A program made the position numbers and the translations under genes. The notes below the pieces were generated by a model. That model was not told the origin of the DNA. It did not search any database and saw only the letters and a program-made list of their open reading frames with translations. 64,000 nt of DNA from Flavivirga jejuensis (lineage in GTDB: Bacteria > Bacteroidota > Bacteroidia > Flavobacteriales > Flavobacteriaceae), in NCBI RefSeq assembly GCF_030540765.1, contig NZ_JAUOEL010000009.1, positions 124,001 to 188,000 on the forward strand, read 5' to 3'. Shown here piece by piece: positions 684-42,183 of the stretch (within the stretch, counting starts at the first letter, position 1; every line of letters starts with the position of its first letter).

Positions 684-2978
684 TTAGGCTATTAAAGCAT
701 CATTAATGAATTTATTATTTTTAGACAATTCTGATTTACTAAATTGAATGTTTGTTTCAATTATTTGGTAAAATTCATAATTATCAAATGGTTTATAAAT
801 AATATCATTAAAACCAATATCATTACCATCACTATCCTTTTTTACACTATCATCAACATCTGATGCGGTTAAAGCTATTATAGGAATATGAGTATTAAAT
901 TTTCTAATATTAATGGTTGACTCTTGCCCGTTCATAATCGGCATATTAATATCCATTAAAATAAGATCAAACTCATCTTCTTTAACTGCATTTAATGCTT
1001 CTAATCCATTACAAACAATAACAGGTTCATAATTAGCCTTTTTTAATAAGTTTTGTGTAACTATCTGATTTATCTTATTATCTTCTGCCACCAAAATCTT
1101 ATACCTATTTAAAGACTTCGTTTCTATTTGATTTTTCGATTCTAATTGATTTCCCCCTTCTTTATCTATTTCAAAAGCTACATTAAAACTAAATATACTA
1201 CCTACCCCTACCTCACTTACAAGATCAATTTTACTATTAAATAACTCCACTAATTTTTTAGTAATGGAAAGCCCTAAGCCTGTACCTTGGTAATTTATAT
1301 TATTATTTTCGTCTAATTGTGAAAAATTATCAAAAACAGCATCGAATTTGTGCTGCGGAATTCCACAGCCATTATCTTCAATTTCAAAACGTATATTAAC
1401 TTCTTTTGTATTTGTATTTAACATTATTACACGAAGACTAATACGTCCGCTTTCAGTAAATTTTATGCTATTTCCTATTAAATTAATTAAAATTTGTGAC
1501 AATCTTACATTATCACATTTTATGTATTCTGGAAGACTCTCATCTATTAATACGTTAATCTTATTATTAGTTTCTTTTAATCTAAAATCAAAAGAATCTA
1601 CAATGTTTTTTATTAGTACTTTTAAACAAACAGAAGTATTTTTTAATTCTATTTTTTGCGATTCAATTTTACTTACTTGCAAAATATCATTAACAAGATT
1701 TAATAAATAGTCTCCCGAATACTTAAGTGAATTTATAAGTTTACTATCACTTTCCCTCAAATCACTATTTTCAAGAAGTAATGAGGTTATACCAACAACT
1801 CCATAAAGAGGAGTTCTTAATTCGTGCGTTACATTCGATATAAATTTCGTTTTTAATTCTGATGATTTCACAGCTTCATTTCGAGCAAGCTCCAATTCTT
1901 CATTCTGATTTTTTAAAATATTAGTCAGCCTTCTTTTAGAAACATAACTTTTATAAACTGTTATTAACGATACAAGAAATAGAAATAATGCTATCGTAAT
2001 AATAATATTTAAGTTTTTTACTTTATTAGTAACCTCAACTTGATGTATTCTTTCCGAATTTGCTATTTGAGCATCCTTTTTATAATCTTCAATAAGAAAC
2101 TTTGACTCAGTAATTAATTTTCTTTCAGATTGCGCTTTATGCATATATTTATACATGTGTTCATTATACTCCAATAGCGCACTATAAGCTTGCTTATCTA
2201 AATCTTGTTTACTTAGAGACGAGGCTAATTTTTTATAAACATGAAGTAAAAGCAAATTAGAATCTTGACTATTATTTTTATAGTTTTCTTCTAATAATGT
2301 TAGTGCTTCATTAAATTTTTTATTCGCATTATTAAACAATCCTTTTTTAATAAAATATAACCCTTGAACATACTTTAAACTCGCATAGTTTTCTGAATTT
2401 GCTCTGTCGTAATTATCTAAATTTTCTTCCGCTCTTATAAGATATATTAATGCTTTTCCTGTTAAGTTATTCTCTAAATATATCTGACACAAATTAATTT
2501 GAATATCAAATAGAACTTTCTGTTCTTTATCAAGGTTATTATGATCTTTAAGATCTCCCAGTGAAGCAAAATTTAGAGCATTTTTAAAATAAGGATGTAC
2601 CTCATCAAATGATTTCTTTTGTTTATATAACTTTCCTAAGCTTAAAAAGGAATTTGCTATTAAATAATTATCATCAATTTCTAACGAAGATTTAAGCGAT
2701 GTAACAAATCGCCTTTCGGCTGCATCATACTCCTGCATAGAACTATAAATTTGTCCCTGAATAAAATTTGCTAAAGCATAACCATAAATATCATTAATTG
2801 ATTCGGATAAGTTTTTAGATTGCTTAATTGATAATAACGAATTTATTATTTCGTTGTTATCATAAAACATCAAAGCATTTGAATTTAAACTATCAATTTG
2901 AAAAATAATATCTTTCTCGTCTTGAGAAAAAGAGGAAGTTATAATACATAGAAAACATACAAGTAGGCTCGTTTTCAT
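684..2978 (-). CDS. Hybrid sensor histidine kinase with periplasmic TPR domain and receiver
   Basis: A 764-residue membrane sensor kinase. Order of parts: signal peptide (about 1-19), TPR-like helical repeats (about 30-300) that would lie in the periplasm, one membrane segment (about 322-341), a short coiled coil, HisKA with the H-box around His385 (NVTHELRTP), HATPase_c with N-box near Asn503, DNGCGIP (535-541) and GTGLGL (565-570), then a receiver domain with AEDN (631-634), phospho-acceptor Asp676 in DLILMDINMP and Lys729. All key residues are present. TPR-type sensor kinases of this design are common in Bacteroidota, where they often control stress or surface genes. No response regulator or output gene sits next to it, so the target is unknown. 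It probably passes phosphate to its own receiver and on to an unlinked partner. Confidence 0.92.
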   Translation of the reverse strand: MKTSLLVCFLCIITSSFSQDEKDIIFQIDSLNSNALMFYDNNEIINSLLSIKQSKNLSESINDIYGYALANFIQGQIYSSMQEYDAAERRFVTSLKSSLEIDDNYLIANSFLSLGKLYKQKKSFDEVHPYFKNALNFASLGDLKDHNNLDKEQKVLFDIQINLCQIYLENNLTGKALIYLIRAEENLDNYDRANSENYASLKYVQGLYFIKKGLFNNANKKFNEALTLLEENYKNNSQDSNLLLLHVYKKLASSLSKQDLDKQAYSALLEYNEHMYKYMHKAQSERKLITESKFLIEDYKKDAQIANSERIHQVEVTNKVKNLNIIITIALFLFLVSLITVYKSYVSKRRLTNILKNQNEELELARNEAVKSSELKTKFISNVTHELRTPLYGVVGITSLLLENSDLRESDSKLINSLKYSGDYLLNLVNDILQVSKIESQKIELKNTSVCLKVLIKNIVDSFDFRLKETNNKINVLIDESLPEYIKCDNVRLSQILINLIGNSIKFTESGRISLRVIMLNTNTKEVNIRFEIEDNGCGIPQHKFDAVFDNFSQLDENNNINYQGTGLGLSITKKLVELFNSKIDLVSEVGVGSIFSFNVAFEIDKEGGNQLESKNQIETKSLNRYKILVAEDNKINQIVTQNLLKKANYEPVIVCNGLEALNAVKEDEFDLILMDINMPIMNGQESTINIRKFNTHIPIIALTASDVDDSVKKDSDGNDIGFNDIIYKPFDNYEFYQIIETNIQFSKSELSKNNKFINDALIA

Positions 2979-3106
2979 TTGGTTAGGGTTTTAGATTTGG
3001 TAACGCAATATATTTTTCAATGTATGAGAAATTGAAAATATTCGATGAAAACACTAATTAAAACGTTTATAGGTAAGGTGTGAAATAAAAGGCTACAGGG
3101 GGTAAA

Positions 3107-3394
3107 TTAAAATTTACGCTTTACTGAGCCTGTAAAATCATCTAAATTGTCTTTAACTTTGTTAAGTTCTTTACTAACATCGTCTTTGATACTCGTATCA
3201 ATACCATTTTTTTCAGCAGTTTTAGTAATTTCATGCTTAATATCGTTGGTAGCATCTTTAAGAGTACGCATCCCTTTTCCTAAACCACGAGCTATTTCTG
3301 GCAACTTATCTGCACCAAAAACCATAATAACAACAAATAGTATAACTGCTATTTCGGCACCACTAATAAATAAAAATGTAGCTGATTGTATCAC
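3107..3394 (-). CDS. tatA: Sec-independent protein translocase subunit TatA/TatE
   Basis: A 95-residue TatA/B-type protein: a short N-terminal membrane helix (residues about 12-27, EIAVILFVVIMVFGADKLPE), the conserved FG-(A)DKLPE hinge, then an amphipathic helix (ARGLGKGMRTLKDAT) and a charged tail. TatA forms the pore for folded twin-arginine substrates together with TatC, which is not in this window. The start read here is GTG at 3394; there is no in-frame ATG before residue 22, which lies in the membrane helix, so the non-ATG start seems real. A TATATTTG promoter box lies only 4 bases upstream, which would give an almost leaderless message. TatA and TatB cannot be separated reliably, but the short tail and FGADKLPE favour TatA. 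Confidence 0.9.
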   Translation of the reverse strand: MIQSATFLFISGAEIAVILFVVIMVFGADKLPEIARGLGKGMRTLKDATNDIKHEITKTAEKNGIDTSIKDDVSKELNKVKDNLDDFTGSVKRKF

Positions 3395-3397
3395 AAT

Positions 3398-3405
3398 GCA
3401 AATAT
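3398..3405 (-). promoter_or_regulatory. Bacteroidota -7 box upstream of tatA
   Basis: The minus strand reads TATATTTG followed by C, matching TAnnTTTG, the -7 element of Flavobacterium-type promoters. It ends 3 bases before the GTG at 3394, so the transcript would start at or next to the start codon. Confidence 0.5.
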
Positions 3406-3430
3406 AGTGAGTTGTTTTGTTAGAATAAAA

Positions 3431-3456
3431 AAAAGCCGATTATAAAATCGGCTTTT
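3431..3456 (-). terminator. Intrinsic terminator after the M1 aminopeptidase gene
   Basis: A perfect 10-bp stem AAAAGCCGAT / ATCGGCTTTT with a 6-base loop sits about 20 bases past the minus-strand stop of the peptidase gene. On the minus strand the hairpin is followed by a run of T residues. It separates this series from tatA. Confidence 0.8.
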
Positions 3457-3474
3457 AATTTAAATATTCTTTTT

Positions 3475-5739
3475 TTATCCTTTAACCTTTTCTTTAAATT
3501 GATCAAAGTCATTTTTCTTTACTTTTCTTGGCCACGAATTATTTGACGTATCTACATCGGCGGTTTCTAAATCTGGGTCTATCATAATATTAGTAATTGC
3601 TTTTTGAGTTTTGAAAACCCTTTTTACTTCACTATCATTATGCCTCCAAATTTGTGCTGGATATGTTTTTCTCTCTTTAGTACCATCTTCATAGGTTAGC
3701 TCTAAAATTATTGGCATTACCAATCCTCCTGGTTTTTCAAAAGTAACTTCATAAAAATATTTTGGAGCATCATCTAACTGTGCTTTTTCTTCATCACTTA
3801 AACTGTTTAAATAATTATTTAAGAATTCAAAATCTGAAGCTTTCTTTGCATCTTCTGGCGTTTTCCCTTCTTTTACTTCGGCAAAATAAATCAGCTTATC
3901 CTTATAATCATCAAGGTTTATATTGTATCGCTTAGCAATTTTTTCATCTTTTTCAGATGGTTTATCTGTTAAATAAAAGCTCTTAACTTCTTTAACTCCT
4001 ATATCGGTATAGTCTGTTGTATAAAACCATCCTCTCCAAAACCAATCTAAATCCATAGCAGAGGCATCTTCCATACTTCTAAAAAAGTCTGCAGGTGTTG
4101 GGTGTTTAAACATCCAACGTTTTGAGTATGTTCTAAAAGCATAATCAAATAACTCAGGTCCCATAATGGTTTGCCTTAACATATACAAACCAGCCGCTGG
4201 TTTAGTATAAGCGTTCGGTCCAAATTGATAAACATAATCCCCTTGCGACATAATTGGAGAAATATAACTTTGGTCTCCTCCCATATAGGGCACAATATCT
4301 TTAGGTAAATTACCTGTTTCATAATTAGGATCGTAATCTAACTCTGCTAATGTTTCTACAAACGAGTTTAAACCTTCATCCATCCATGTCCATTGGCGCT
4401 CATCACTATTTACAATCATTGGAAAAAAATTATGTCCAATTTCGTGGGTAATTACACCAATCATACCTCTTTTAAGTCGTTTTGAATAAGTTCCATCTGG
4501 ATTAGGCCTTCCGTAGTTAAAACAAATCATAGGATATTCCATTCCCATTTCTGCGTGTACAGAAACAGCCTTATTGTATGGATAATCAAAAGTAAGCTTA
4601 GAATACTCTTCTAATGTATTTGCTACAACTCTTGTTGAATGTTCTTCCCAAAGTGGATTTCCTTCTTTAGAATATAATGAAATTGCCATAACAGTTCTAC
4701 CATTTATATCTACAGCCATGGCATCCCATAAAAATTTTCTTGAAGTTGCAAAAGCAAAATCCCTAACGTTATTTGCTTTAAAGTGCCATGTTTTCGTTTT
4801 TGTGCTTCTTTCTTTCTCTGCTTTTTCAGCTTCTTCCTGCGTTACAATAAAGACAGGATCTTTATATGATTTTTTAGCCAACTCAAAACGCTTAATCTGC
4901 TCTTTTGTTAAAACGTCCTTTTCATTTTGCAATACACCTGTTGCTTCTAATTTATGGTCTGCGGGAACTGTTAATTTAACATCAAAATCTCCAAACTCTA
5001 AAGCAAACTCACTACGTCCCCAAAACTGCATATTTTGCCACCCTTCAACATTATCGTAAACACAAAGTCTTGGATAAAATTGAGCTATTACATAATTACT
5101 ATTTCCATCTGGAAATGACTCATAACCAGACCGTCCTCCATCTGCAACATGATTATTAACATTATACCACCATTTTATTTGAAATTTAAATTCTCCACCT
5201 GGAGCTAATGGTTTTGGTAAATTAATTCGCATCATCGTTCGATTTATCATAAAAGATAAATCTGAACCATCAGATTTTTTAACAGCCTCAATATTAAAAC
5301 CACCATCAAAACGTTTTTTTAAATTTGTTTTAGTGAAATTTACTGGGCCATTAAATGTCGCATTGAAATTTTCTGATTCTACCTCTGGAGTTTTTGAATC
5401 TTTAGCTCGCATATTTTGATCAAGCTGCACCCATAAATAATCTAAATAATCTTTAGAATTGTTATGATATGTTATTTTTTCGTTTCCAAAAATCTGATTT
5501 TTAGATTCGTCTAAACGAATATCCATGACGTAATCAACTTTTTGTTGCGTATACTGATAACCAGGTGCTCCTGAAGCTGTTCTGGTATTACTTGGCGTAG
5601 GTAACACATCTTTCAATTGTCTGAATTTGTTCTGATCTGTGTGACCCTGAACTTTAGCCTTTTCTTGTTCTTGTGCAAAAATAGTCGTAGAAATAAAAAC
5701 AACAGAAAGGAAATAATACTTAAACTTTTTCATTATCAA
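3475..5739 (-). CDS. M1 family zinc aminopeptidase-like metalloprotease, exported
   Basis: A 754-residue protein with a signal peptide (cleavage likely after ...TTIFAQ, about residue 23). The M1 catalytic core is clear: GMEYP (399-403) in place of the usual GAMEN exopeptidase loop, HEIGH at 432-436 and the third zinc ligand in WMDEGLNS (Glu455), spaced as in gluzincins. Such secreted M1 proteins of Bacteroidota are thought to trim peptides outside the cytoplasm. No T9SS sorting domain or lipobox was seen, so it is probably periplasmic. A second ATG two codons downstream (MKKFKYYF) may be the true start. It is the last gene of a minus-strand series with the DUF6702 gene 100 bases upstream and a terminator behind it. 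Confidence 0.92.
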   Translation of the reverse strand: MIMKKFKYYFLSVVFISTTIFAQEQEKAKVQGHTDQNKFRQLKDVLPTPSNTRTASGAPGYQYTQQKVDYVMDIRLDESKNQIFGNEKITYHNNSKDYLDYLWVQLDQNMRAKDSKTPEVESENFNATFNGPVNFTKTNLKKRFDGGFNIEAVKKSDGSDLSFMINRTMMRINLPKPLAPGGEFKFQIKWWYNVNNHVADGGRSGYESFPDGNSNYVIAQFYPRLCVYDNVEGWQNMQFWGRSEFALEFGDFDVKLTVPADHKLEATGVLQNEKDVLTKEQIKRFELAKKSYKDPVFIVTQEEAEKAEKERSTKTKTWHFKANNVRDFAFATSRKFLWDAMAVDINGRTVMAISLYSKEGNPLWEEHSTRVVANTLEEYSKLTFDYPYNKAVSVHAEMGMEYPMICFNYGRPNPDGTYSKRLKRGMIGVITHEIGHNFFPMIVNSDERQWTWMDEGLNSFVETLAELDYDPNYETGNLPKDIVPYMGGDQSYISPIMSQGDYVYQFGPNAYTKPAAGLYMLRQTIMGPELFDYAFRTYSKRWMFKHPTPADFFRSMEDASAMDLDWFWRGWFYTTDYTDIGVKEVKSFYLTDKPSEKDEKIAKRYNINLDDYKDKLIYFAEVKEGKTPEDAKKASDFEFLNNYLNSLSDEEKAQLDDAPKYFYEVTFEKPGGLVMPIILELTYEDGTKERKTYPAQIWRHNDSEVKRVFKTQKAITNIMIDPDLETADVDTSNNSWPRKVKKNDFDQFKEKVKG

Positions 5740-33009: not shown

Positions 33010-34638
33010 ATGGGAAAAGGCTTTTTTAATGTACCAGTAGCTGTTAACGAACCAGTTAAGAGTTATGCTCCTGGGACTCCCGAACGCGAAGCAGTACTAG
33101 AAACATATAAAGAAATGTTTAATAGTAAAATAAACGTTCCATTATATATAAACGGAAAAAACATAGAAACTGGTAATACCAGAACGATGTCTCCTCCACA
33201 CGACCATAAACACAGTGTCGGAACTTATCATCTGGCTGAGAAATCACATATTGACGATGCTATTTCTACAGCATTAGAAGCCAGAAAAAGTTGGTCTTTA
33301 ATGCCATGGGAACAACGTGCTGCTATTTTCTTAAAAGCTGCCGAATTAATTGCGGGCCCTTATAGAGCCAAAATAAATGCTGCAACCATGATGGCGCAGT
33401 CTAAAACCATTCATCAAGCAGAAATTGATGCTGCTTGTGAGTTTATAGATTTCTTACGTTTTAATGTGCAGTTTATGACTGACATTTATATGGAGCAACC
33501 AGAAAGTACAAGTGATGCCTGGAATAGAGTTGAGTACCGACCTCTTGAAGGGTTTACATACGCCGTAACTCCTTTTAACTTTACTGCCATTGCTGGAAAT
33601 TTACCTGCATGTATGGCATTAATGGGTAATGTGGTGGTTTGGAAGCCTAGCGATAGTCAGGTATACTCTGCTAAAGTAATTATGGATGTTTTTGAAGAAG
33701 CTGGTGTACCTCCTGGTGTTATCAATGTTGTTTTTGGTGATCCTGTTATGATTACGAATACAGTTCTGGCAAGTCCAGATTTTTCTGGCTTACACTTTAC
33801 AGGTTCTACCTTTATTTTTAAAGAACTTTGGAAACAAATAGGAAATAATATCCACAACTATAAAACGTATCCAAGAATTGTGGGAGAAACTGGCGGTAAA
33901 GATTTTGTCGTTGCTCATAAATCTGCTAATCCAGAACATGTAGCTACCGCTATTGTACGTGGGGCTTTCGAATTTCAAGGACAAAAATGTAGTGCTGCTT
34001 CAAGAGCCTATATTCCAACAAGTTTATGGAGCGATGTTAAAAGTAAAGTTATAAAAGATGTAAAATCTTTTAAAATGGGGTCTCCAGAAGACATGAGCAA
34101 CTTTATTACTGCAGTGATTCATGAAGGTTCTTTCGATAAGCTAGCAAAATATATAGATCAGGCTAAAGCTGATGCTAATGCCGAAATTATTGTTGGTGGG
34201 AATCATGATAAAAGCAAAGGGTATTTTATTGAGCCTACTGTTATAGTGACTACAGATCCTAAATACACCACCATGTGTACAGAGTTATTTGGTCCTGTGA
34301 TTACCATTTATGTTTACGAAGATGATGCTTACGCAGACACTTTAAAATTAGTAGATGAAACGAGTGAATATGCTTTAACTGGAGCTATTATATCTAAAGA
34401 CAGGTACGCGGTGACTCAAGCAACTGAAGCTTTACAAAATGCTGCTGGAAATTTCTATATTAACGATAAACCAACTGGTGCTGTTGTTGGACAACAACCT
34501 TTTGGTGGTGCCAGAGCTTCTGGAACTAACGATAAAGCTGGAAGTGCTCAAAACTTATTACGTTGGGTATCTCCTAGAATGATTAAGGAAACTTTTGTGA
34601 CTCCTACGGATTATCGCTATCCTTTTTTGGGGGAATAA
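33010..34638 (+). CDS. pruA: L-glutamate gamma-semialdehyde dehydrogenase (1-pyrroline-5-carboxylate dehydrogenase)
   Basis: A 542-residue aldehyde dehydrogenase that oxidises glutamate semialdehyde to glutamate with NAD+, the second step of proline breakdown. Seen: TPFNFTAIAGNLPACMALMG with VVWKPSDSQ (NAD site), HFTGSTFIFK, the general base in IVGETGGKDFV, the catalytic Cys in FEFQGQKCSAASRAY, and QQPFGGARASGTNDKAG. The family length (about 540) is kept. It has its own promoter and terminator, so it is a single-gene unit. Confidence 0.96.
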   Translation: MGKGFFNVPVAVNEPVKSYAPGTPEREAVLETYKEMFNSKINVPLYINGKNIETGNTRTMSPPHDHKHSVGTYHLAEKSHIDDAISTALEARKSWSLMPWEQRAAIFLKAAELIAGPYRAKINAATMMAQSKTIHQAEIDAACEFIDFLRFNVQFMTDIYMEQPESTSDAWNRVEYRPLEGFTYAVTPFNFTAIAGNLPACMALMGNVVVWKPSDSQVYSAKVIMDVFEEAGVPPGVINVVFGDPVMITNTVLASPDFSGLHFTGSTFIFKELWKQIGNNIHNYKTYPRIVGETGGKDFVVAHKSANPEHVATAIVRGAFEFQGQKCSAASRAYIPTSLWSDVKSKVIKDVKSFKMGSPEDMSNFITAVIHEGSFDKLAKYIDQAKADANAEIIVGGNHDKSKGYFIEPTVIVTTDPKYTTMCTELFGPVITIYVYEDDAYADTLKLVDETSEYALTGAIISKDRYAVTQATEALQNAAGNFYINDKPTGAVVGQQPFGGARASGTNDKAGSAQNLLRWVSPRMIKETFVTPTDYRYPFLGE

Positions 34639-34864: not shown

Positions 34865-35239
34865 ATGGCAAAATATAAATATCATGAAAGGTATGCAGTT
34901 TGGCTAAATCATGAAAAAAGATGTTGGCTTTGTAAAGAACCTTTAAGGATAGATGAAACCACAATTGATCATATTTTACCAGAATCACTTCTCGATGATG
35001 AAAAGAAAAAGAAGAAAGTATTTGAAATATATGGATTGAATGATAAATTCAGAATAAATGGGTTTGAAAATTGGCTTCCTGCACACCTAGTATGTAATCA
35101 AAACAAAGGGAGTTCTATTTTAAATTGTGTTCCACTTTACGCATTCATATTGAATAGAACAATTAAGAAAGCAGAAAAAGTTTTAAGAACTTCACAAGCA
35201 ATGCAAATAAAGATAAACTCTTATCAAAAATTGCAGTAG
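34865..35239 (+). CDS. HNH endonuclease-like protein
   Basis: A 124-residue cytosolic protein. It has a CxxC knuckle (CWLC, about residues 20-23), IDHILPES with the D-H catalytic pair (Asp33-His34), and LPAHLVCNQNKGSS with the His, Asn and second zinc cysteine, the layout of an HNH nuclease. It is short, with only a basic C-terminal helix beyond the domain. The immediately following small gene (2-base gap) is surely co-transcribed. The pair could be a defence, toxin-like or mobile-DNA module; nothing in sequence decides. Confidence 0.82.
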   Translation: MAKYKYHERYAVWLNHEKRCWLCKEPLRIDETTIDHILPESLLDDEKKKKKVFEIYGLNDKFRINGFENWLPAHLVCNQNKGSSILNCVPLYAFILNRTIKKAEKVLRTSQAMQIKINSYQKLQ

Positions 35240-36742: not shown

Positions 36743-37987
36743 ATGCGAATAGGTATTATTATTGGTAGAATTGGTGGCGTAGATGGCGTAGCACTTGAAA
36801 CCGAAAAATGGATAGAAGTATTAAAAAAATTAGGACATAAAGTCTTTATTATGTCTGGAGAATTCGAATCTTGGGATATGGATTATGAGCATGATTATCT
36901 CTTTCCTCCCTTATCCTTTTTTTCGGTTGAAGCCGAGTGGGGACAACGTAAAGCCTTTTATGAACCTGATAAAGACCCAGCCCCTTTACTAGATCATGTT
37001 GAAAATGCATCCAACATGATTTATAAAGCCATGCTTCAATGGGTTACAGATAAAAAAATAGACGCTATACTTTCAGAAAACGCTTCAGCACTCCCCTGTC
37101 ATTTATCTATGGGGGTTGCTATAAAAAAACTAATTAAAGATACTGGATTGCCTATAGTAACTCACGATCATGATTTTCATTGGGAACGCGGGCAGCGTTA
37201 TGTTTCAGTACACCCTGAAATTAACCAATATATAGATGATAATTTCCCGTTGTTACTACCCAATGTAAAACACGCAGTCATAAATACCTTTGGAGTAGAA
37301 ACCTTTAAAAACAGATTTAATATAGATGCTACTTTGGTACCTAATGTTATGGATTTTAATCGGGTTTACGGTGTTCCAACTCCAGAAAACCAGTTCTTCC
37401 TAAAAGATATAGGCATTACAGAAGACGAAATTGCATTATTACAAGTAACACGTATCGTTAGGCGTAAAGGTATTGAAACAGCAATCTCCTTAATTGATAA
37501 ACTAGATGATAAAAAACTAAAACTAGTTATTACTGGAAATAATAATGATGACGAAAATAAAGAATATTATAATGAATTAATTGATCAGATTCACGAACTA
37601 AATCTATCAAATCAAATCATATTTGCAGCGCACAAGGTACTAGATCATAAAGATTTATCTGATGTTTATGCACACGGTAGAGCCTGTACTTATTTTAGTA
37701 CTTATGAAGGTTTTGGAAATGCTTTTGTTGAAACTGTACTTGCAAAAAAACCCATATTTGTAAATAACTACAAGCCTGTATATATGCAAGACATTGGCAA
37801 TAAAGGGTTTGAAACAGTCATGATAGAAGACGGACATCTCACGACTAAAAGTGTTCAACAAATGTCAGACATCATATACAATCCAAAACGATGTTTAGAA
37901 ATTGGCGCATATAACTTTAACCTTGGTAAAAAATATTTCTCATTTGATGTCCTTGAAGAAAAATTAAATAACTTATTTACATTTTAA
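36743..37987 (+). CDS. GT-B glycosyltransferase (GT4-like)
   Basis: A 414-residue cytosolic glycosyltransferase. N-domain MRIGIIIGRIGGVDGVALET with the glycine-rich donor loop; PIVTHDHDFHWERGQRY near 140-157; C-domain LQVTRIVRRKGIETAISLID, KLVITGNNNDD and the nucleotide-sugar site YFSTYEGFGNAFVETVLAKK near 315-334 with the E-x7-E pattern. It has no signal or membrane helix. The motif HDFHWERG is shared with the next protein (HDFYWEGG), so the two belong to one unusual subgroup. The gap to the next gene is 11 bases. Product unknown. Confidence 0.85.
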   Translation: MRIGIIIGRIGGVDGVALETEKWIEVLKKLGHKVFIMSGEFESWDMDYEHDYLFPPLSFFSVEAEWGQRKAFYEPDKDPAPLLDHVENASNMIYKAMLQWVTDKKIDAILSENASALPCHLSMGVAIKKLIKDTGLPIVTHDHDFHWERGQRYVSVHPEINQYIDDNFPLLLPNVKHAVINTFGVETFKNRFNIDATLVPNVMDFNRVYGVPTPENQFFLKDIGITEDEIALLQVTRIVRRKGIETAISLIDKLDDKKLKLVITGNNNDDENKEYYNELIDQIHELNLSNQIIFAAHKVLDHKDLSDVYAHGRACTYFSTYEGFGNAFVETVLAKKPIFVNNYKPVYMQDIGNKGFETVMIEDGHLTTKSVQQMSDIIYNPKRCLEIGAYNFNLGKKYFSFDVLEEKLNNLFTF

Positions 37988-37998
37988 GAAACGAACAA

Positions 37999-40900
37999 AT
38001 GACTAAGACAGCGAAAATCACGAATATTTTAAATGAACTTAAAAATGAAAAAATAAACACCTGGTTTGATTTAGGTTTATTTATTGATAGATTTAAAGAA
38101 CAAAATTCAAAATCAGCCTTTAAAGGTGATGCACCGTCATTTGATGCTCATATTGAAAAAGGAGGCATTGCTTTTTTAACATTTTACTTCACTATAGATG
38201 GTATTACGGTAGAAACAGAAAAGTATGCCAAAACTTTTAAGAAGATTTACCCTAATATTCCCATTCATTTTATAGCAGGAGATATTAAACAAGAGGCCGA
38301 TGAATTAATTCCAAAAGACGCTTTTAAAAAAGTATTTCCAGAAATGGAAGCTTTTGATGCCTGGCCGTTATACGATGATTTCTTTAGAATAAAAATGGAA
38401 CGTGGTAGTGAAGCCTACAATAACCTTATTGGTAAGTTCTGGAAAGAGGTTTTAGTATTAGTAGAAAAATTGGGTCGTTATATTGAAGAAAATGATATTT
38501 CGCTGTTGTATTTAATCAATGTGTGCTCTAATCCTGGTAATGTTTCCTTGGCATTGGCTACCGTATTAATTTCAGAATATTTAGGAATTCCTGTCATTAA
38601 TAATAATCATGATTTTTATTGGGAAGGTGGTAATAGAAAAGTAGAAATTAAAAAGAAAGGCCTGAAAAAAGGGCCAAGAGATTTCTTTTTTCATAATGCC
38701 CATGTCGGGGAGTTTTTCTCAGTCATAGAAATGATTTACCCATGGGAAAGTCGGTCTTGGATGCATGTAAATATTAATAAAATTCAACAAAACCATCTAA
38801 TAGATATTAATGGTCATAACCCAGCCAATGTGGCGCTCATAGGAACAGCGGTAGATACCAAAATGCATCAAATGAGTAAGCGCGACATTATAAAAGCGTT
38901 TATGCAAGTGTCTACTATTTTTGCTAACAAAAAAGATACAATAACAGTTCATACAGCCGCACATCATACCGATAGTGAACGGTCATTAAAACCCATATTA
39001 TTAGGTTATAAAACCATTCGTAAATTTGATTTTGTAAACAACAATATTGTTTTCTTACAGCCTACACGGGTAATTAGCAGAAAATCTATCGAGCTTAATT
39101 TTAAATTGATTAAGCGCTTATTTTCTTATGATTCATTTGCCGAAAAATTCATCACAAATCCACAATTAAAACTATCCTTAATTGTTTCTGGACCTATCCC
39201 ACATGGTCAACAAAATTACTATCACGATTTAAAAAAAGATTTTAAAAAGTTCCTTAAGGCACTTCCAAAAACATTCAAATCAAGAGTCCTTCTTGGGTTT
39301 TTATTTAGTGAGTTCGATAAAAATGAATTTAAGAAAAAATATAAAAAGCCATTAGATATTGAGCAACTGTATGATGTGGCTTCCTTAATTTTATTACCAA
39401 GTCAAACCGAAGGCAGGGGCTTACCTATTATTGAAGCTGCAGCTTGTGGCACACCCATATTTTGTAGACAGTACGAACCAAGAGAAGTTTATGATGAAGT
39501 TATTGGTCGTCATTTAGATCAGTCTTTACGTTTAAACGTTTTAGAATTTAAAGGCTCTAAAATCCCTAAACGATTGGCGGAAAAAATATGTGATCATGTG
39601 TTTTATCCTCAAAACAGAATGGTTGATGTTACACATAATAGAAGCGTTATTAATAAGCGCTATAGTATAGAAGCATTGCAAAAAAACATGCAATATATTC
39701 TAGGTCGACTGCATTTGCAGTTAGGAGCTATTTCTAATACCGTTAACCCACAAGTGGTTAATTTATTAGAAGCATACAAAAATATGGTACATTTTGAAAA
39801 TGAAGACCTTCATGCTATACTTAATAAAAAAACGAGACATTACTTACCTGGTTATGGCAGATTGTCGTTTATGACGTATTTAAAATCTCTAATAGATCCT
39901 AGTTTTTTTAGAGTAGAAGAACAGCTCATAAAAGGAAAAGTAATGGGGTATGCCAGAATGATGGAAAATGACATTCCTGATTTAGTAAATACTAATCTTA
40001 ATTTAATCCACAAATATTATAATGCCATAGATGATATTTTTAAATATGTAGATGGAGAATTAACAATAAGACACGATCATGCCTTGGCATACAGGCATAG
40101 AAACAAAAAACAATATGCCTATCAAGCATTTACTTATCATGAGGTAACAGGTTTGGTTAATATGATTTATAGCGATGTTTTTAATCCAAAAAACCTACCA
40201 GATTTAACTTTGGCACCACAATTTTTTGCTGATTGGGAATTGGCATTATTTCAATTAACCAATAGTAAATTTTTAGGAATTGATGATCGAAAAATTTTAA
40301 CAAAAAAATTAAAAAACAATGTTCCTAAAGGGTACTTTCCTGGACGTTATATTAAGCATGAATTGGAATATTTTGTATTGCAACCTATTCGGGCACAACT
40401 TGAGCTTAAAATAGAAGAAGAACTTACTGCAGATGTCCTTAAAGAAAAAGGTAAAGAATTAGAAAAAGTCTATATTTTTATACACGAACCAAGAATCACA
40501 AAATGGTTTTCAAATGCCAATATTAAGGAGTATTTAGAAAGTGGAAAGGAACCTGAACTAGGGTTGTTATTTAAAACAGGCGTTGTTCAGATAATAAAAA
40601 CAAAACAATGGTCTGAAGGGGTTCATTTTCCACAAATGGGAGCCAAAGCAATTAAGATTTTACGAAACATTAAAGAATCTAACGGTTTTATAATTACCAA
40701 TGGCGAGTATGCGGCAATGATGACCGACATTATAGAAATAGATCATTTCCACATAGGAAAGGTACAGCATAGCATGACTGCTAAGATTATGGGAATCCCT
40801 AAGGATAGTGGTTTTATACAATTTGTACCAGCAGCAGTTAGAACCACTTTAGCATTTCCTACCCCCATACAAACAGCCAAAGATTTTGATAATGTTTTAA

Positions 40901-42183
40901 AAAGCAAACTATATAAAAAGCTTAAAAAAATACTTGGCGAAAAGGAATTGTTGCAACTTATATCTAAAGATGCTATTGAAAACGGCACCCCCATAGCGAA
41001 GCTGTTAGAGCAAATAAATGAAAACTTAAAAGACACTAAAACCGTTGAAAAAGTAACAGCGTCATTTGCTGGAGGCGTTTATGAAGATGGTTTACCTTGG
41101 AGCGGTGTATTAGCCGAAATTGATACCAAAAAAGATAACTGGAAGTTCGCAGCCCATATTGCCAAGAAAGAACCTAAAAATGTACCTGCCCTTATCAATG
41201 AGTATAAGAAGGCAAGTAAAAACCCGAATAAAATAGAGCTAGCCTGGAATGGAGGCTACATATTAAATCCAGAATTGGTTGGTAAACTAGGATTGCCAGA
41301 AACCTATATAGGCTCCCCTTTAGGTCTATTAATTATGAATAACACTGTGTTTTGTCCGCCACTTTTTAATAAACCAGCATTCATTATTTATAAAAATGGC
41401 GATGTAGATATTCGAAAGGTAAACAGCAAAGCAGGCTTTATTGTAAAAGGAAAACAAAACATCCTATTTGCTCCAAGCCACTATAATACACACAGCAATA
41501 CCGAACCTTGTTTTTACGATTTGTCTTATCCCGAAGAGACCATACAAGGTGATGGTCATGTTATTTTAAGAATAGCAGGCCATACGGTAAAGCAAATTAT
41601 TAAAACAAAAGCAAATGAAGTTGTGCCCGTTATTCCAGTGGGGATTACCTTGTCTATACCTTTAGAAGTGTTTGCTAATGGGGAATTTGAAGAAGGCATG
41701 CCATTAGATATTCAGTTATTAGAGCCAGAAACAAACCCTTACAAATGGGATGAGATATCGTATGCTATTGAAGCAGGACCGATGTTAATTGATGGTGGCA
41801 AGCAAATTTTAAATATGGAAGATGAAGGTTGGAAAACGGCTAACTCTATTAAAACACAAGCGGCCCGATTAGACTTTACAGATATGCGCGGTCCAAAAAT
41901 AGCTGTAGGTATTACTAAAGCGGGTAAACTTATGGTACTTATGGTAAACGGACGCATTAGAGAATCTGTTGGTGCTACCCATTTTGATATGGTAGATATT
42001 CTTTTAAAATACGGTATGGATAAAGCCATGGGCTTCGATCCTGGAGGTAGTAGCACCTTGGTTGTTGATGGTAACATTATGAATATTTCGCCATACAATA
42101 AAAACTACGAGAAAGATATTTACTCATTACCACCAGAACCGCGATTTGTTGCCAATGCCATTATGGGCTGGATTGAAGGATAA
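37999..42183 (+). CDS. Giant fusion: GT-B glycosyltransferase plus NAGPA-type phosphodiester glycosidase
   Basis: A 1394-residue protein with no signal peptide. About 50-570: GT-B glycosyltransferase with NNNHDFYWEGGN (201-212), FLQPTRVISRKSIEL (352-366) and the donor site LPSQTEGRGLPIIEAAACGT (466-485). About 580-820: mostly helical, unassigned, with a His/Arg-rich patch (RHDHALAYRHRNKKQ, 691-705). About 820-1010: unassigned, with MGAKAIKILRNIKESNGFII. About 1060-1394: phosphodiester glycosidase (NAGPA, PF09992-like) with AWNGGYIL (1082-1089), MVNGRI and the hallmark GFDPGGSSTLVVDG (1345-1358). NAGPA enzymes cut a sugar from a phosphodiester. Joining a transferase and a phosphodiester glycosidase suggests one protein that builds and edits a phospho-linked glycan. 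This is inference. No frameshift is needed to read it through. Confidence 0.85.
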   Translation: MTKTAKITNILNELKNEKINTWFDLGLFIDRFKEQNSKSAFKGDAPSFDAHIEKGGIAFLTFYFTIDGITVETEKYAKTFKKIYPNIPIHFIAGDIKQEADELIPKDAFKKVFPEMEAFDAWPLYDDFFRIKMERGSEAYNNLIGKFWKEVLVLVEKLGRYIEENDISLLYLINVCSNPGNVSLALATVLISEYLGIPVINNNHDFYWEGGNRKVEIKKKGLKKGPRDFFFHNAHVGEFFSVIEMIYPWESRSWMHVNINKIQQNHLIDINGHNPANVALIGTAVDTKMHQMSKRDIIKAFMQVSTIFANKKDTITVHTAAHHTDSERSLKPILLGYKTIRKFDFVNNNIVFLQPTRVISRKSIELNFKLIKRLFSYDSFAEKFITNPQLKLSLIVSGPIPHGQQNYYHDLKKDFKKFLKALPKTFKSRVLLGFLFSEFDKNEFKKKYKKPLDIEQLYDVASLILLPSQTEGRGLPIIEAAACGTPIFCRQYEPREVYDEVIGRHLDQSLRLNVLEFKGSKIPKRLAEKICDHVFYPQNRMVDVTHNRSVINKRYSIEALQKNMQYILGRLHLQLGAISNTVNPQVVNLLEAYKNMVHFENEDLHAILNKKTRHYLPGYGRLSFMTYLKSLIDPSFFRVEEQLIKGKVMGYARMMENDIPDLVNTNLNLIHKYYNAIDDIFKYVDGELTIRHDHALAYRHRNKKQYAYQAFTYHEVTGLVNMIYSDVFNPKNLPDLTLAPQFFADWELALFQLTNSKFLGIDDRKILTKKLKNNVPKGYFPGRYIKHELEYFVLQPIRAQLELKIEEELTADVLKEKGKELEKVYIFIHEPRITKWFSNANIKEYLESGKEPELGLLFKTGVVQIIKTKQWSEGVHFPQMGAKAIKILRNIKESNGFIITNGEYAAMMTDIIEIDHFHIGKVQHSMTAKIMGIPKDSGFIQFVPAAVRTTLAFPTPIQTAKDFDNVLKSKLYKKLKKILGEKELLQLISKDAIENGTPIAKLLEQINENLKDTKTVEKVTASFAGGVYEDGLPWSGVLAEIDTKKDNWKFAAHIAKKEPKNVPALINEYKKASKNPNKIELAWNGGYILNPELVGKLGLPETYIGSPLGLLIMNNTVFCPPLFNKPAFIIYKNGDVDIRKVNSKAGFIVKGKQNILFAPSHYNTHSNTEPCFYDLSYPEETIQGDGHVILRIAGHTVKQIIKTKANEVVPVIPVGITLSIPLEVFANGEFEEGMPLDIQLLEPETNPYKWDEISYAIEAGPMLIDGGKQILNMEDEGWKTANSIKTQAARLDFTDMRGPKIAVGITKAGKLMVLMVNGRIRESVGATHFDMVDILLKYGMDKAMGFDPGGSSTLVVDGNIMNISPYNKNYEKDIYSLPPEPRFVANAIMGWIEG

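Follow-up and report, generated by a model that had tools for sequence, protein, structure and literature searches.

A conserved glycosyltransferase pair of Flavivirga jejuensis, one member fused to DUF89-like and NAGPA-type domains, as a candidate pathway to a soluble glycoside

We analysed a 64,000-nucleotide stretch of the Flavivirga jejuensis genome (assembly GCF_030540765.1, contig NZ_JAUOEL010000009.1, positions 124,001 to 188,000 of the forward strand; hereafter the window, in whose coordinates positions are given) that carries a cassette of two open reading frames (ORFs) on the + strand, separated by 11 bases. Gene 1 (36743-37987) encodes a stand-alone GT4-type glycosyltransferase (GT) of 414 amino acids (aa) that resembles the mannosylglucosylglycerate (MGG) synthase MggS. 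Gene 2 (37999-42183) encodes a 1394-aa protein in which a GT4-type part is followed by a domain with a DUF89-like predicted fold and by a NAGPA-type domain. The gene 2 fusion is real and old, and its pairing with gene 1 is near-obligate. The GT chemistry of both genes is of a known kind; the domain combination, with its unnamed middle domain, is new to the libraries searched, and no account of the cassette was found in the open-access literature searched, of which coverage was partial. We infer substrates, product, order of steps, role and an activity for the NAGPA-type domain: the two genes may form a cytoplasmic pathway to a soluble MGG-like glycoside or short oligosaccharide, most likely a compatible solute or stress metabolite of marine bacteria. 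This reading is tentative, and we give it slightly less than an even chance.

The fusion protein and its partner are conserved together

A one-genome-per-species scan returned 127 stretches encoding relatives, and the best 80 of these (78 loci) were kept, a choice that over-represents close relatives. At 72 of the 78 loci, all from other genomes, gene 2 was an ORF of more than 1300 aa, and the aligned proteins were 45-97% identical to that of the window, the nearest named relative being Flavivirga aquimarina (97%). The six loci left out of the alignment ran into contig ends (L070, L082, L084, L085) or had a broken frame (L088, L090). A preliminary description of the locus, made from its sequence, had proposed the transferase-NAGPA fusion and had pointed to an assembly join should all relatives lack it. 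The fusion recurs in other genomes, and an assembly or annotation artefact joining two genes, for which nothing was found, is thus refuted.

Most carriers belong to the Bacteroidota. The cultured genera are Flavivirga, Winogradskyella, Lutibacter, Lutimonas, Hyunsoonleella, Aureibaculum, Algibacter, Maribacter, Polaribacter and Marinifilum, all known as marine genera. Other carriers are metagenome-assembled genomes (MAGs) labelled Calditrichota, Planctomycetota, Desulfobacterales, Gammaproteobacteria and Chlorobiota, labels that may be wrong, and two MAGs labelled Bacteroides and several carriers of unknown habitat were also found.

Gene 1 was present at the gene 2 locus in 63 of the 78 cases (as a 146-aa piece only at L055 and broken at L088). 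At the other 15 loci it lay elsewhere in the genome in 13, once as a 129-aa stretch, which brings the partner to 76 of 78 genomes overall, a few of them with part of the gene only. The two genomes with no gene 1 match are 2.2-2.3 Mb assemblies of unstated completeness. The co-occurrence raised in the preliminary description was therefore borne out. Pairwise distances of the two genes were strongly correlated (r = 0.97 over 59 rows with both genes, the pairs not being independent). Flavobacteria have gene 1 immediately before gene 2. In many Bacteroidales, gene 1 lies on the opposite strand, behind a HemW-like gene (named by eye), or further off. Within the 6.0-Mb source genome, the single NAGPA match and the two matches to the MGG synthase model NF041101 all fell within genes 1 and 2.

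Some individual loci departed from this pattern. Both genes are frame-broken in W. psychrotolerans RS-3 (L088, 6733-12178), of which a second strain (L016) has intact copies, and gene 2 is frame-broken in one MAG (L090, 9212-13377); these copies may reflect sequencing error or decay. A Caldithrix MAG (L086, 332-2987) has two gene-1-type GTs in tandem, followed by gene 2. Two further candidates proved unrelated and were rejected as cassette relatives: L095, a multi-GT protein by eye, and L094, a 1272-aa NAGPA-type protein. In the latter (712-4530), the NAGPA-type domain is joined to a part that by eye looks like a metallophosphoesterase, in a relative without the cassette.

Both glycosyltransferases are related to MGG synthase

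Both proteins matched Pfam Glycos_transf_1 (E 2.9e-16 for gene 1 and 4.8e-7 for gene 2), with the GT part of gene 2 matching PF00534 at 29.9 bits. This part spans approximately residues 50-585 (38146-39753, + strand), as judged from NF041101, PF00534 and alignment with gene 1 and an MggS-like protein. Residues 1-410 of gene 1 aligned to positions 1-429 of NF041101 (mannosylglucosylglycerate synthase), an end-to-end match (E 1.3e-62, 211.9 bits; next model, 45.7 bits). For the GT part of gene 2 the match was lower (E 3.8e-12, 45.7 bits) and its best stretch covered the C-terminal half of the model only. The equivalog cut-off of NF041101, 640 bits, was reached by neither protein, and because gene 1 scores so far under it, its substrate may differ from that of MggS.

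The preliminary description had placed the two proteins in one GT-B subgroup on the strength of a common HDF-x-WE-x-G motif and a basic block. The motif reads HDFHWERG in gene 1 (HDHDFHWER at 37163-37189) and HDFYWEGG in gene 2 (38608-38631). The basic block is likewise real (TRIVRRK, 37448-37468, in gene 1; TRVISRK, 39064-39084, in gene 2), but its pattern is TR(I/V)-x-x-RK, one residue longer than the TR(I/V)-x-RK first given. The E-x7-E motif follows as EGFGNAFVE in gene 1 (37706-37732) and EGRGLPIIE in gene 2 (39409-39435), all of these motifs lying on the + strand. The subgroup assignment held, as both proteins matched NF041101, albeit below its cut-off, and E-x7-E occurred in every aligned row (62/62 for gene 1 and 73/73 for gene 2). 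Of the 62 gene 1 rows, 61 had HDF-x-WER, and of the 73 gene 2 rows, 71 had HDFYWEG.

We also evaluated NF041101 across 148 Bacteroidota genomes. Matches at E <= 0.001 occurred in 28 genomes, none over the cut-off, and near-whole-model matches were confined to the source genome and one other (G200). The MggS-like protein of G200 scored 252.5 bits, is 34% identical to gene 1 over 405 aa and has the motif HHHDFYWER; an enzyme of an MGG-type locus therefore has the HDF-x-WE motif too. That locus (L156, 1498-7859) is compact and encodes GpgS (NF010496, 395.8 bits, cut-off 262), a 488-aa GT-looking protein without an NCBIfam match, a HAD-like hydrolase, a sucrose-phosphorylase-like enzyme and the MggS-like GT, the hydrolase and the phosphorylase-like gene both scoring under the cut-offs of their best models. 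Unlike the cassette, it showed no three-domain fusion partner.

While G200 encodes GpgS above the cut-off, none of four cassette genomes did (the source, G005, G007 and G035; best score 61.5 bits), and the cassette is therefore not just the latter half of a GpgS route. The supply of glucosylglycerate was judged here by GpgS, with non-phosphorylating glucosylglycerate synthases outside the search.

The NAGPA-type domain has a fixed, altered signature

The C-terminal domain of gene 2 (approximately residues 1022-1394; 41062-42180, + strand) was delimited using PF09992, Foldseek and motif alignment. PF09992 matched residues 1244-1369 (E 2.1e-18, 67.5 bits, cut-off 25), in agreement with the preliminary assignment, and the sequence GFDPGGSSTLVVDG named for this domain is present in the protein. 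Foldseek placed it with 5h3k (E 7.3e-21), with 6pki_D as the best NAGPA structure (E 3.2e-12), and with 6ozd and 3ohg. The domain thus shares with the NAGPA/DUF2233 phosphodiester glycosidases (PF09992; 3ohg, the 6pk-series, 5h3k) its Pfam family, its fold, the signature asparagine, GR and D-x-GGS. It differs from them in being cytoplasmic (by eye) and fused to a GT, and in three replacements, R to K, D to N and G to P.

In the window protein N1084 is kept, K1300 stands in place of the arginine, N1317 in place of the aspartate (NGR) and D1347-P1348 in place of DG (DPGGS). The PR arginine is a lysine in all 73 cassette rows, DPGGS replaces DGGGS and NGR replaces DGR in 72 of 73 rows each, the remaining row being gapped, and N1084 was invariant in 36 rows. 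For comparison we used NAGPA proteins from 29 of 30 fetched Bacteroidota loci, taken from 65 matches that included the source protein; L125 was left out since it had no [LVIFM][DN].GGS. Read by eye from the printed alignment, these proteins had (H/D)PR(T/S) in 29/29, DGGGS in 29/29 and DGR in 28/29, where the D-x-GGS frame is partly conditioned by the selection and the second-letter G and the PR arginine are not. The PR(T/S), DGR and DGGGS signature of other Bacteroidota members is absent from the cassette domain.

The preliminary description had held that a NAGPA domain without its active-site residues would refute its reading of the fusion. The outcome was mixed: the fold and several signature residues are kept, and the changes above are fixed. 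One explanation is that the altered domain is catalytically dead and serves as a binding module for a sugar phosphate or a nucleotide sugar, with a role in regulating the GT or in keeping the assembly together. The near-complete fixation of the three replacements, set against their near-absence elsewhere, would be expected under this explanation. However, N1084, R1319, D1347, GGS and the long blocks surrounding them hardly vary between phyla, which is what an active site would show, and we consider a dead domain rather unlikely, while giving it real weight. Changes fixed across phyla suggest altered function rather than decay, although the domain may be inactive, and it should not be taken to carry out ordinary NAGPA hydrolysis. 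One report describes the uncovering enzyme (human NAGPA) as also able to hydrolyse UDP-GlcNAc (PMC12024695). Unrestrained hydrolysis of this type in the cytoplasm would waste sugar nucleotides, and for that reason a gated hydrolase or a transferase is worth considering.

The middle domain is a predicted remote member of the DUF89 fold

Between the GT part and the NAGPA-type domain lie residues 568-1022 (39700-41064, + strand), the stretch of about 450 residues that the preliminary description left unassigned. At the level of sequence families that description stands, as the window protein had no Pfam match here at E up to 1, but a confident fold could be predicted. When 48 members of the domain were compared with Pfam, 26 families appeared at E up to 1. 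Each of the 25 shown was matched by one or two members (best E 0.0086), and we take these scattered matches as chance. A PDB sequence search gave a single match at E 0.82. The AlphaFold2 model, in contrast, was confident (pLDDT 83.4, pTM 0.84), and Foldseek ranked DUF89 proteins at positions 1-16 (we take 1xfi to be one), ten of them at E <= 0.001 and the best at 3.9e-7, with Csm6 at rank 17 (E 0.037). The TM score by target was 0.62 for 2g8l and lower for the larger eukaryotic DUF89 proteins. A longer gene 2 model also matched DUF89 proteins, behind NAGPA-type ones. On the predicted model, the domain has the DUF89 fold.

Sequence comparisons gave a different result. The hhalign probability against a profile of ten DUF89 proteins was 0.5%; the profile was built from 10 of 12 loci, L128 and L133 being left out for want of an ORF carrying the selecting motifs, DN-x-G and KG-x-x-N among them. 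PF01937 was not among the 25 families shown for the 48 domains and had no match in the source genome. Three motifs seen in DUF89 proteins were looked for at any place in the domain: of 73 rows, DN-x-G was found in 2, KG(D/Q/E)-x-N in 0 and RT-x-K in 3. Since sequence-level support is missing, the link to DUF89 is one of predicted structure, and since the canonical motifs are missing, dephosphorylation by this domain is unsupported. The domain has invariant residues of its own, including those around IDPS-F-R-E, DH-YRHRN and MTD, and its conserved blocks on the + strand are IDPSFFRVEE (39889-39921), RHDHALAYRHRN (40069-40104) and MMTDI (40717-40731). Compared with DUF89/ARMT1-like metal-dependent phosphatases (PF01937), it therefore shares the predicted fold and the 16 best PDB matches and differs in having no Pfam or profile match, no DUF89 motifs and its own invariant set. 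We read it as a remote DUF89-fold domain, with an activity that would be different or lost.

The middle domain was matched eight times among 397 genomes of the family (source included), seven times in frames of 1398-1406 aa and once in a 757-aa frame. A stand-alone version was not seen in these genomes or in 395 genomes of the phylum, where the source gave the sole match.

A possible cytoplasmic route to a soluble glycoside

In the proposed pathway, the GT part of gene 2 would transfer a hexose from a nucleoside diphosphate (NDP) sugar onto a small, probably phosphorylated, acceptor. The DUF89-like domain would bind or process the resulting sugar-phosphate intermediate, by analogy with the phosphatase-like domains of sucrose-phosphate and trehalose-phosphate synthases, which are thought to act on such an intermediate. 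The MggS-like gene 1 protein would add the next sugar, and the NAGPA-type domain would act on a sugar-1-O-P bond, in an NDP-sugar or a glycosyl phosphodiester, either as a control or editing activity or for further transfer. Sucrose- and trehalose-phosphate synthases similarly combine a GT-B enzyme with a phosphatase-fold domain and yield a soluble saccharide; their domains are of the HAD type, whereas those of gene 2 are DUF89-like and NAGPA-type.

The kinship with MGG synthase, which comprises the end-to-end alignment of gene 1, the match of the gene 2 GT part, the E-x7-E-type motif and HDF-x-WE, argues for a soluble glycoside rather than a phosphodiester polymer. That the fused protein makes and trims a phosphodiester-linked glycan, as the preliminary description suggested, is a conjecture. 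A self-contained unit of two genes is favoured by the near-obligate pairing and by the lack of a GpgS over the cut-off in the four cassette genomes. A soluble product also fits MGG-type enzymology, the lack of fixed neighbours and the marine carriers. According to one report, MGG is an osmolyte of the marine planctomycete Rhodopirellula baltica and rises strongly there under nitrogen limitation (PMC3694870).

Several observations weigh against a soluble MGG-like product. Gene 1, at 212 bits, is far below the curated MggS cut-off of 640. The middle domain has no canonical DUF89 motifs, and we know of no obvious place for a NAGPA-type domain in known osmolyte pathways. Some carriers are MAGs that may come from other habitats, and no osmolyte data for a carrier turned up among the open-access papers listed. 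The unit is also rare, occurring in 8 of 397 family genomes (source included) and in one of 395 phylum genomes (the source), so it does not answer a general marine need.

The product could instead be an intracellular polysaccharide or a glycolipid head group, like the mycobacterial methylglucose lipopolysaccharides primed with glucosylglycerate, and not a free osmolyte. MGG synthase acts on a glycerate glycoside, and two GTs could suffice for a repeating glycan. Glucosylglycerate is described as a putative precursor of methylglucose lipopolysaccharide-type polymers in one report (PMC2581804). Against this, the neighbours read or scanned, a survey that was not exhaustive, showed no branching-enzyme, methyltransferase or acyltransferase genes accompanying the pair, and we regard such a product as unlikely.

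Neither protein has an evident signal peptide or membrane segment by eye, in keeping with the cytoplasmic location proposed earlier for gene 2. This bears on whether the pair could build a surface glycan (O-antigen, capsule or exopolysaccharide), with the NAGPA-type domain trimming it. Exported proteins are where NAGPA domains usually occur, and GT4 enzymes commonly take part in making surface glycans, which would suit that role. The missing signal peptide and the MggS-type kinship speak against it, as do the neighbours, which differ between genera and which, among those examined, include no sugar-nucleotide genes and, as noted in the preliminary description, no wzx/wzy-type genes; no surface-glycan genes appeared among the ten scanned or among the neighbours read by eye. 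We consider this role improbable.

A bolder reading can be envisaged in which the NAGPA-fold domain has become an NDP-sugar glycosyltransferase, or a phosphodiester-forming transferase. Gene 2 would then be a cytoplasmic assembly line with three active sites that makes, with gene 1, an undescribed class of saccharide, and the DUF89-like domain would be a new enzyme family with its own chemistry. We would put only a small chance on this reading. Transfer of sugar by the NAGPA domain, if real, would mean that a glycosidase fold had been recruited for glycosyl transfer.

Distribution and genomic neighbourhood

Only two of 11 same-genus genomes carry the cassette, while an aldehyde-dehydrogenase-type gene flanking it in the window (33010-34638, named by eye) is present in all 11 at 92-95% identity. 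In G035, from another genus, gene 2 is 82% identical and the dehydrogenase 68%, this being a single comparison gene. Because the cassette is patchy within the genus and gene 2 is more alike between genera than a flanking housekeeping gene, the two-gene unit is probably transferable between species. It would thus be a rare two-gene pathway with a central domain outside Pfam and with culturable marine carriers; should a solute be its product, it would show how marine bacteria may gain an osmolyte by one transfer event.

In the window, the cassette has the dehydrogenase gene on one side and genes that by eye look YCII-like and sigma-factor-like on the other. It also lies beside the dehydrogenase gene in G005, where the far side is past the contig end. 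The slot measures about 1 kb in G001 and 3-3.6 kb in G003, G007 and G011, in each case with no cassette, G007 having its copy on a different contig. Neither the YCII-like nor the sigma genes were found within the 8 kb fetched from G004. Counting against transfer, the 11 Winogradskyella copies form one group, most Winogradskyella loci have downstream neighbours in common, and no copy was found in phage records, plasmid records or viral contigs (the last searched for close relatives only). Losses could explain part of the patchiness.

Patchiness is also a feature in favour of a GT from a conflict or defence system. Other hints are a Pfam GT4-conflict match (PF20706) of 19.5 bits, under the cut-off of 26, weak matches in PHROGs, both to phage glycosyltransferases (gene 1, E 2.7e-5; gene 2, E 6e-6) and to two families that are unknown, and, at the Aureibaculum luteum locus (L028, 4988-7561), an NB-ARC domain protein immediately upstream of the pair. 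There was no PADLOC match, the mobile-element searches above were negative, and the neighbours inspected are mostly housekeeping or unrelated genes; we consider a defence role very unlikely.

A promoter scan gave 24 sites, fewer than in shuffled sequences (mean 36.0), and a terminator scan five, about the same as in shuffles (3.6). Downstream of the cassette, a sugar-transporter-like MFS gene was seen at L034 and a sodium/solute-symporter-like gene at L074 (both by eye). An ORF (34865-35239) that by eye resembles an HNH endonuclease separates the dehydrogenase gene from the cassette in the window; the slot around it varies among same-genus genomes and is perhaps an insertion hotspot.

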